A stretch of DNA of 64,000 nt, taken from positions 2,918,716 through 2,982,715 of the forward strand of contig CAJHZI010000741.1 of NCBI GenBank assembly GCA_905160935.1. The letters run 5' to 3'. The stretch comes from Enchytraeus crypticus. Its lineage: Eukaryota; Annelida; Clitellata; Enchytraeida; Enchytraeidae. A program made the position numbers and the translations under genes. Below are positions 49,601 to 52,600 of the stretch, piece after piece. The notes beneath the pieces are model-generated. The model was not told where the DNA came from and searched no databases. It saw only the letters and a list, made by a program, of their open reading frames with translations. Numbering within the stretch: the stretch's first letter is position 1; each line of letters opens with the position of its first letter.

Positions 49601-52600
49601 CTGGGATTTATCGGAAGATGATGACGATGAATTAGACTATATCGAATGCTGATAAAACGCTTTTCAGATAAGTAAGAGATGACTGGTTTGAAACTCAGCC
49701 TAACCGTTTCAGATATTTAGAAAAAGGACACTAGATTTGTATTTATTTGTGAATCAGTCCATAAATTTCGGTCAATTAAGTAATTTTTCTGTTCAAAATG
49801 AAACAAAATTTGATTAATAAAATTTGCTTTGAAAAATCATATGTGCGATTAAGCGCATGAATCTGAAAATAATTTAGGGTGACTTAGAATGGTCGAAAGT
49901 TTTGAGAATACATGTTTGTCAGATTTGAATTGACTGTTCATTTGATTCGATTTAACTTATAAGTTGATCAACATGCAAAAGTGGATTAACATATTAGATA
50001 TACATTTAATGTACCCGTGCTGATCCAGGCGACTGTAGGATAGACCAACCGCAAGCTGTATGTGTCGTAACTGCGGAATGCAAACAACCGACCAGGGCAA
50101 ATGGAAACCAACTCAGAAGCCATCTTTTTCGCATGTTAATTAGGCTACGTTATAGTGTGGTTAGGGAATAATATTTTGTGAATTAATTTAACTTATTGAC
50201 CAATGGAGGCCACTTTATAGAGTCTCAGTAGGAATATGTAGCCTTTGATCTGTCCTTGGACAGAATTTAAAGTAGAGATACGAATAGTGTAACATCACGT
50301 TTTAATTATGACATTTGTGTTTTAATTAAAGGCCAGCACTGGCTTAATCAATCAATCAATCAATAATAATTTCAATCTGGTTCCTCGCCATATGGAAATG
50401 TCAGAGACTTACTATGCATTTGTTATGTTTTATTATATTAGCTTCAAAGCTGTGATACAGTAGTATATTAAATCTTCAATTATTTGTTTAATATTATATT
50501 AAATTAAAATACTAAAATATTAAAACTTCTACCTGTACAGGTGAGGTGATATTTGACATTGATAGCGGTAGAGAAAAAACCAGTCACGGGGGGTCGGCCC
50601 CCACTCAACATTTTACAATAATTTTCAACTCATTCGTCATGATGACACTGTTCAACGAAATCAACGCCCGAAAGATTCATGGGCAACGGAACGTGTTCGA
50701 GGGGCTCAACAGGAATCCCGTGTTCATCGGCATCTGGACCTGTACCTTCATTGCGCAGGTAGACACACGTATTGCATTGGTAGGCCTATGTATTGCACAG
50801 GTAGGCTTATGTATTGCACAGGTAGGCCTACGTATTGCACAGGTAGGCCACGTATTGCACAGGTAGGCCTATGTATTATGATGTAAAATTAAGATAATTG
50901 TATATAGCTTGATATATCCCATGTTACTCCAGATATAAAAGTATCATATAGTCAGCATAAAGCCGTCACAAAACTCATCTGTGACGTCAAAACTAACACA
51001 AATTCCGTCTTAAATCAATAGGGAAAAAGCCTAAAATCAAATTTTCATTCCGTTAGCACAAAAGAATGACATTGACATCTTTAATTGTAACTAAAGTGAG
51101 TGAGCGACGGAAGGATTGATTAACTGAGTGATTTATTGACTGATTGATTGATTGATCGCAGGTTATAATAGTCCAGTGGGGTAGCTTCGCATTCTCCACA
51201 GCTAGTCTAACTCTAGAGCAGTGGTTGTGGTGTCTACTGATAGGAGTGGGGGAGCTAGTGTGGGGCCAGGTGTGCCTTCTTTTATCTTCATCCTATTTAT
51301 CTTCGTCCTCTCTATCTTCATCCTCTTTATCTTCATCCTCTCTATCTTTATCCTCTCTATCTTCGTCCTCTCTATCTTCATCCTCTTTATCTTCGTCCTC
51401 TCTATCTTCATCCTCTTTATCTTCATCCTTTTTATCTTTATCATCTTCATCATAAGAAGGCCTAGCTATTGAGAGACATGCATGTAACTCTCAAGAGTTC
51501 TGTAATAATGCATTTGTATTAATTAAGATCTATGTCAAATATTTATCTTAATTAAGAATTATGTTAATTAAGTATCTTAAAGTTTTAATTCGTTTAATCG
51601 CTCTTTCCAGCATGCTGTTCTGCAGCTCTGCAACTCTCTCCTATCCGTTCTTTGATATTATTGATTTTCTTACCAGCAAACATTTCTCAACTGCTAACCA
51701 GCTCCACATTCAGTGAAAGATTAAGCTTTTCAACCAATATTTTCCATCTTTTCCATATATTGACCATGAGATGCGCCCAATATGTGAACCTTCTTTAATT
51801 CCATGTCTTTGAATTGGATTTCCGTATATTGTATTTTAGCTATTTTACGGACCTTCGAAGTTTTTGCTCGCTGGCTTGATTTTGATTTCGTATTGCTGGA
51901 TGTTGTCATTGCTGACAATAGCACTATAACTGTTTACTGTTTTTTAATTGAATCAGCTCGTAACTTCGATTCCAATGAACATAATTCCTAAGAAAATGCC
52001 ATTTGGAGCAAAGCCAGTGGATGACGTCGAGATGAGCGAGAGGATGGAGGAGCAAGAAGAGGACAGCCTCGATGAGATGGGTCGTAGAGGTCATATTCTG
52101 TGGATCAGGGGCCTGACCCGGTTACAGACACAGGTAAGTCAAGTAGAAGTATCAATAATCAATCAATCAATCAATAAAGCTGGTAAAAGCTGGTAAAGCT
52201 AAGATTAACGTCAGTTTCCTCATTCGAAAGCGATATCAGTGGCGGGCGAGCCCGGGATTTTACAAACACAAGTGAGTCAAGTAGTAGAACAATCAATCAA
52301 TCAATCAATTAATAAAGCTGGTAAAAGCTGATAAGCTAACATTAACGTCAGTTTCCTCACTCGAAAGCGATGTCAGTGACGGGCGAGACCAGGATTTTAA
52401 CCACACATCTACTGATCCACGGTCGAGCATCTTACCGACTTCGCCATTGACTCCAGCCAAGTGGCAAAAATAAGAATTTAACGTCCGATTTCTCGCCATA
52501 AGGCAAGGTCAGGAACGTCAGTAATTAACTTAGCTTGACAGCTCTACAGCTTTTAATGTAAAGTTTGATGAATTTCCCGTACCACAAATTCATTGCCACA

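Follow-up and report, generated by a model that had tools for sequence, protein, structure and literature searches.

The window analysed here, a 64-kb stretch of contig C643 in an assembly of 524 Mb, contains most of the length of a gene for a plasma-membrane calcium ATPase (PMCA). All positions given below are those of the window, and all features described lie on its forward (+) strand. Twenty PMCA exons with GT/AG junctions were placed by eye, using family knowledge and splice signals. The reading frame breaks between placed exons 5 and 6, suggesting that one exon was unseen. The intron at 27478-38396 is 10.9 kb long and the frame does not join across it; it probably holds a small or alternative exon, and it lies where vertebrate PMCA has its variable site A. 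ATTG/AATC simple repeats lie a few bases from the acceptors or donors of several exons (26446-26492, 38837-38866, 46000-46054 and 51114-51156).

The exon that ends at the array described below runs from 50541 to 50758, ends in ...TCTFIAQ and is in phase 0 at its donor; the next exon (VIIVQWG...WGQ) is located at 51162-51269. It is the 17th of the 20 exons placed and is called exon 17 here. The original prediction numbered it 18, which is possible since one exon appears to be unseen between exons 5 and 6. Exon 17 matches PMCA1 and PMCA2 in the PDB, and the alignment with human PMCA1 (6a69) runs as far as the Gln that closes the exon (chain residue 1020), interrupted only by a two-residue gap in the exon's first half. 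All nine PMCA-like genes found in the genome (see below) have this exon ending at that Gln codon. The junction sits within the most hydrophobic 19-residue stretch, which from family knowledge is presumably transmembrane helix 9.

A 21-bp minisatellite lies across the donor of exon 17 (50750-50877; 6.1 copies, TRF score 179). Its first unit consists of the last 9 bases of the exon and the first 12 bases of the intron, and is identical to the consensus of units 2-4 at 16 of 21 positions; for the nine exonic bases the agreement with the array consensus is 8 of 9. Outside the neighbourhood of the array, none of the 63,780 21-mers of the window that were examined matched the consensus at 16 of 21 positions. 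A DNA search of the assembly recovered a single full-length copy of the exon 17 locus. The origin of the array by duplication of the exon-intron junction, as had been proposed, is thus well supported by the match of unit 1.

GT is present in all six units, preceded by CAG in units 1 and 3-6 and by TTG in unit 2 (a slash marks the exon-intron junction in the motifs that follow). With a position weight matrix derived from 67 donors of the PMCA family, the presumed authentic donor, GCGCAG/GTAGAC at 50759-50764, scored 6.2 bits, at about the 25th percentile. The decoy donor at +21 (TTG/GTAGGC, 50780-50785) scored 5.4 bits. Those at +42 (50801-50806), +63 (50822-50827), +84 (50843-50848) and +104 (50863-50868) all read CAG/GTAGGC and scored 9.7 bits (9.74), 3.5 bits above the real donor. 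The first four decoys are in frame with the exon, so that three of the four strong ones are in frame. The unit that follows +84 is 20 bp long, which puts the last donor, at +104, out of frame, and the first stop in the exon 17 frame is at +105, beyond all decoys. The predicted spacing of 21, 42, 63 and 84 bases, the open frame and the break caused by the 20-base fifth unit were therefore all correct. The predicted GTAGGC donors were also found, with the exception that the upstream side of the +21 donor is ATTGCATTG/GTAGGC rather than CAG/GTAGGC.

Three other junctions of the same gene are spanned by arrays. Exon 8 ends at 40010, and its donor is spanned by an array with periods of 17 and 33 bp (40001-40368). 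The 17-bp unit, which includes the donor, is present in about 22 copies, many of which read GTG/GTAAGT and outscore the real GTG/GTATGT. The real donor scored 7.2 bits and 13 downstream decoys scored higher, each of which shifts the frame or lies past an in-frame stop at +50. Since the PMCA gene is otherwise conserved and all 13 decoys would break the protein, the stronger sites must be ignored at exon 8 if the protein is to be made, and donor strength alone cannot decide usage. Exon 11 starts at 43344, where a 26-bp array of 10.8 copies (43073-43352) repeats the acceptor TGCAG/GTGTAGTTG, so that the real acceptor is preceded by about 10 near-identical ones at 26-bp intervals. A 137-bp duplication (52122-52399) spans the donor of exon 19, which ends at 52133.

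At least nine PMCA-like genes were found in the genome, on contigs C643 (the window), C132, C776, C420, C122, C134, C427, C268 and C115. They have common intron positions, an apparent family expansion. A genome-wide profile search with TIGR01517 served for finding paralogs only and gave no match above the full-length cut-off; as scoring covered 9 of the 316 initial candidates, further paralogs may exist. Locus L027 (contig C755), with 34-75% identity to parts of the window exons, was excluded from the PMCA set. The mitochondrial genome of the assembly is contig C802 (15,205 bp), which has an invertebrate-type code and its recognised genes in one orientation. From its open frames we take the order to be cox1-cox2-cox3-nad6-cob-atp6-nad5-nad4L-nad4, a gap where the rRNAs are expected, and nad1-nad3-nad2. 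This order agrees with the annelid pattern, as given in the available text of PMC2639372, in which nad6 and cob follow cox3, atp6 lies between cob and nad5, nad5 and nad4L/nad4 are interchanged, and nad3 lies between nad1 and nad2; on this basis we regard the animal as an annelid.

The junction sample from the PMCA family comprised 135 junctions (67 donors and 68 acceptors) in 103 kb; the outer ends of exons 1 and 20 do not count as junctions. Three projected donors lacking GT were dropped before the count (exon 11 on C132, exon 13 on C776 and exon 17 on C427, the last of which has a GC donor), and the GC donor of exon 16 on C122 was retained. In all, two paralogs had GC in place of GT at a conserved donor position, exon 16 in locus L046 (GCAAGT) and exon 17 in locus L030 (GCTAGT). 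A junction was scored as spanned when a tandem array with a period of at least 7 had at least 5 bases on each side of it. Several arrays had two TRF periods (17/33, 26/52, 21/64, 53/211 and 33/20), of which one was taken per array.

By this definition 13 of the 135 junctions were spanned (8 donors and 5 acceptors), by arrays that differ in their repeat units and have periods of 17-137 bp; the four in the window gene are the donors of exons 8, 17 and 19 and the acceptor of exon 11. Each of the 12 arrays other than that of exon 17 in the window includes 7-53 bases of its own exon. At a further 25 junctions an array edge (period at least 4) came within 20 bp without spanning. In four of the eight arrays at donors, one or more decoys scored higher than the real donor; the real donor was best in two, and in the remaining two (exon 15 on C132 and exon 17 on C268) it was tied with a decoy. 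The array of exon 15 on C132 (L043:7743-7918) has a 46-bp period and includes 30 exonic bases, and its copies at +46, +92 and +138 are identical to the real donor AAC/GTAAGT over the nine scored bases. At these arrays it is probably the position next to the exon, rather than the matrix score, that decides donor choice.

Tandem arrays made up 9.5-11.6% of the sampled sequence. Uniform placement, tolerating up to 60 exonic bases, predicted 5.3-7.5 spanned junctions against the 13 observed, with P values of 0.03, 0.01 and 0.001 at TRF scores of at least 40, 50 and 80, respectively. A null in which arrays were jittered locally (by up to 150-600 bp) predicted 7.6-11.0 (P 0.02-0.29): 9.5-11.0 for score thresholds of 40 or 50 (P 0.12-0.29), and 7.6-8.6 for arrays scoring at least 80 (P 0.02, 0.03 and 0.06 in three settings). 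This null is conservative, because arrays stay near their own places. As the excess was mostly lost under it, the frequency is for the most part a matter of local array density. A mild bias of arrays toward junctions, clearer among high-scoring arrays, is possible, and would have an ordinary cause if coding selection keeps the exonic end of an array from decay. Periods divisible by three showed no clear excess over chance: they were found in 6 of the 13 arrays (P 0.24) and in 4 of the 8 at donors (P 0.26), or in 7 of 13 (P 0.10) and 5 of 8 (P 0.09) when the 33-bp period is taken for exon 8.

Junction-spanning arrays are not confined to PMCA genes, since 5 of 60 exon sides (30 loci, two sides each) were also spanned among matches to the myosin head. 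For this count 30 of the 81 matches were examined; their boundaries are approximate and some matches cross a stop. An array reached into or near the open frame in 9 of the 30 loci and spanned a junction in five (L056, L067, L069, L071 and L077). All nine were inspected, and in the other four (L052, L055, L063 and L066) the junction was not spanned.

The explanation we strongly favour, and regard as very probable, is that the exon 17 array is a mirage-type minisatellite lying across the splice boundary, a tolerated by-product of a repeat-rich worm genome, and that the exon-proximal donor is normally used, leaving the protein unchanged. A 21-bp segment astride the exon-intron junction would have been duplicated in tandem, by replication slippage or unequal exchange, after which additional copies would have expanded into the intron. 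Only the outermost unit would be held in place, by its coding sequence and its working donor. The extra donors would then be by-products and the array neutral, and its in-frame period of 21 bp without a stop would be a coincidence.

This explanation is compatible with a low level of decoy use, the products of which would be discarded or non-functional, amounting to splicing noise and perhaps a mild brake on expression. Some leakage of splicing is plausible because four decoys exceed the real donor by 3.5 bits, and use of the strong donor at +104 would shift the frame. Against it, regular splicing is reported for the amphioxus cases in the text available to us. Overall, such noise seems possible, though somewhat doubtful.

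The original prediction went further, and proposed that the in-frame decoys could lengthen transmembrane helix 9 in steps of seven residues. In this form, use of the decoys at +42, +63 and +84, which precede any stop and score 9.7 against 6.2 bits, would give PMCA isoforms with helix 9 longer by 14, 21 or 28 residues. The distribution of arrays lends it some support. Exon 17 donors carry an array in three of the eight genes counted (21 bp in the window, 26 bp on C776 and 21 bp on C268), whereas elsewhere 10 of 127 junctions do (Fisher P 0.03, one among many possible tests). The arrays on C776 and C268 differ in intronic sequence, and that on C268, at the same donor but of different sequence, has in-frame decoys at +21 and +42. 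The predicted inserts are less favourable. Heptapeptides of the VGLCIAQ type had been expected at each step; the first is instead VDTRIAL, which brings an Asp and an Arg into helix 9 and is part of every lengthened product, and it is followed by two heptapeptides and then VGLRIAQ. The 21-residue insert would raise the best 19-residue hydropathy mean to 2.47, compared with 1.81 without it, and longer inserts could create an additional membrane pass. Lengthened products are unlikely to be working pumps. The exon end is kept in nine of nine paralogs, splicing at exon 8 of this gene must pass over stronger decoys downstream, and periods divisible by three are not in clear excess. Lengthening of helix 9 by the array is thus poorly supported, and lengthened isoforms are unlikely on the sequence; we give the proposal as a whole a very small chance of being right. 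Its strongest version, in which the +42, +63 and +84 donors are used in some cells, helix 9 varies by seven-residue steps with array length, and copy number, differing between individuals, acts as a heritable dial on the pump, is highly improbable. If it were true, the in-frame 21-bp array of different sequence at the same donor of the C268 paralog would be a second case.

It could also be proposed that paired array units fold the decoys away and leave the real donor most open to U1, the unit containing the palindrome GTAGGCCTAC. The calculated cost of opening was 3.5-6.8 kcal/mol for all five decoys and 3.0 for the real donor, and in four of five folding windows the real donor had a slightly higher mean unpaired probability. 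However, the differences were small, the order was reversed in the longest window, and most decoys fell within the range of the real donors of the family (median 4.8, quartiles 3.3-6.2 kcal/mol, n=64). Folding separated the exon 17 donors weakly and was rejected as a device that hides the decoys; we think it quite improbable.

Least probable of all is that the array stems from a dispersed family of 21-bp minisatellites, inserted next to the exon, instead of a local junction duplication. Partial matches to the query were found in arrays on C333 (best E 3e-10), C332 (2e-10) and C653 (2e-6), and the 21-bp unit of the C333 array (41.5 copies) is identical at 17 of 21 positions in the best rotation; the C332 unit has only 12 identical positions ungapped. 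Against such a family, the other 12 PMCA junction arrays each include part of their own exon, the exonic part of the exon 17 array is ordinary coding sequence for the PMCA family, the exact 15-mer occurs at only two other sites in the assembly, neither of them an array of the unit, and for a genome this large chance alone should yield about one unrelated array as close as that on C333. That estimate multiplies 2 of 200,000 random units by about 98,000 arrays (period 19-23), a number extrapolated from the window, where TRF gave 12 such rows, some of them overlapping. The similarity of C333 is therefore at chance level and a dispersed family was rejected as the source of the array.

The array has close counterparts in amphioxus, where tandem repeats across exon-intron boundaries were named mirages in Adh3 (PMC3087553, PMC3902484). 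According to the available text of these two reports, mirages also occur in troponin C, the globins BflGb6 and BflGb9 and PGBD5, the units measure 10-72 bp in Adh3 and about 150-160 bp in the globins, and clusters have unstable lengths, which can differ between haplotypes or tissues. Splicing is reported or argued there to be undisturbed by the duplicated splice sites of the Adh, TnC and globin genes. As far as these descriptions go, the exon 17 array is alike in that its units hold part of an exon, a splice signal and part of an intron. The arrays found here also resemble the amphioxus mirages in affecting both donor and acceptor sides and in having AG or GT copied in many units.

Duplication of a sequence containing a splice site has also been considered as a route to intron gain, a model cited in the available text of PMC3087553; expansion of repeats is described as creating introns in Cryptococcus in that of PMC2395259. 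The tandem copies of splice signals seen here would likewise be raw material for new boundaries. Unlike in that model, no newly gained exon or intron was observed, and exon 17 ends as it does in the paralogs. Tandem alternative donors, such as pairs of the GTNNGT type, are defined by their usage in RNA. The exon 17 array resembles these in offering several in-frame donors on one exon.

For annelids, our literature search, of partial coverage, yielded no case of a junction-spanning array, which is weak evidence. Minisatellites are described in introns of earthworm metallothionein genes, and the available text of that report (PMC12783039) does not mention any that span a junction. A phenomenon that we found described only in lancelets would extend to a protostome, and it bears on shifts of introns and exon ends. 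If about one-tenth of all splice junctions were spanned, the genome would offer many natural tests of how the spliceosome chooses among identical or stronger neighbouring sites, including exon 15 on C132 (four alike donors, 46 bp apart) and exon 11 of the window gene (eleven acceptors, nearly identical, at 26-bp intervals). Annotation is concerned as well, since gene models built from short reads could be unreliable at junctions of this kind.

In comparison with the known systems, the exon 17 array, as read from the genome, has the properties of a mirage: a minisatellite-like unit, a position across the boundary, and copied splice signals. It differs from the amphioxus cases in its annelid host, in the genes concerned (PMCA and myosin), and in the frequency, about one-tenth of the sampled junctions, which makes this a new place for a known phenomenon.
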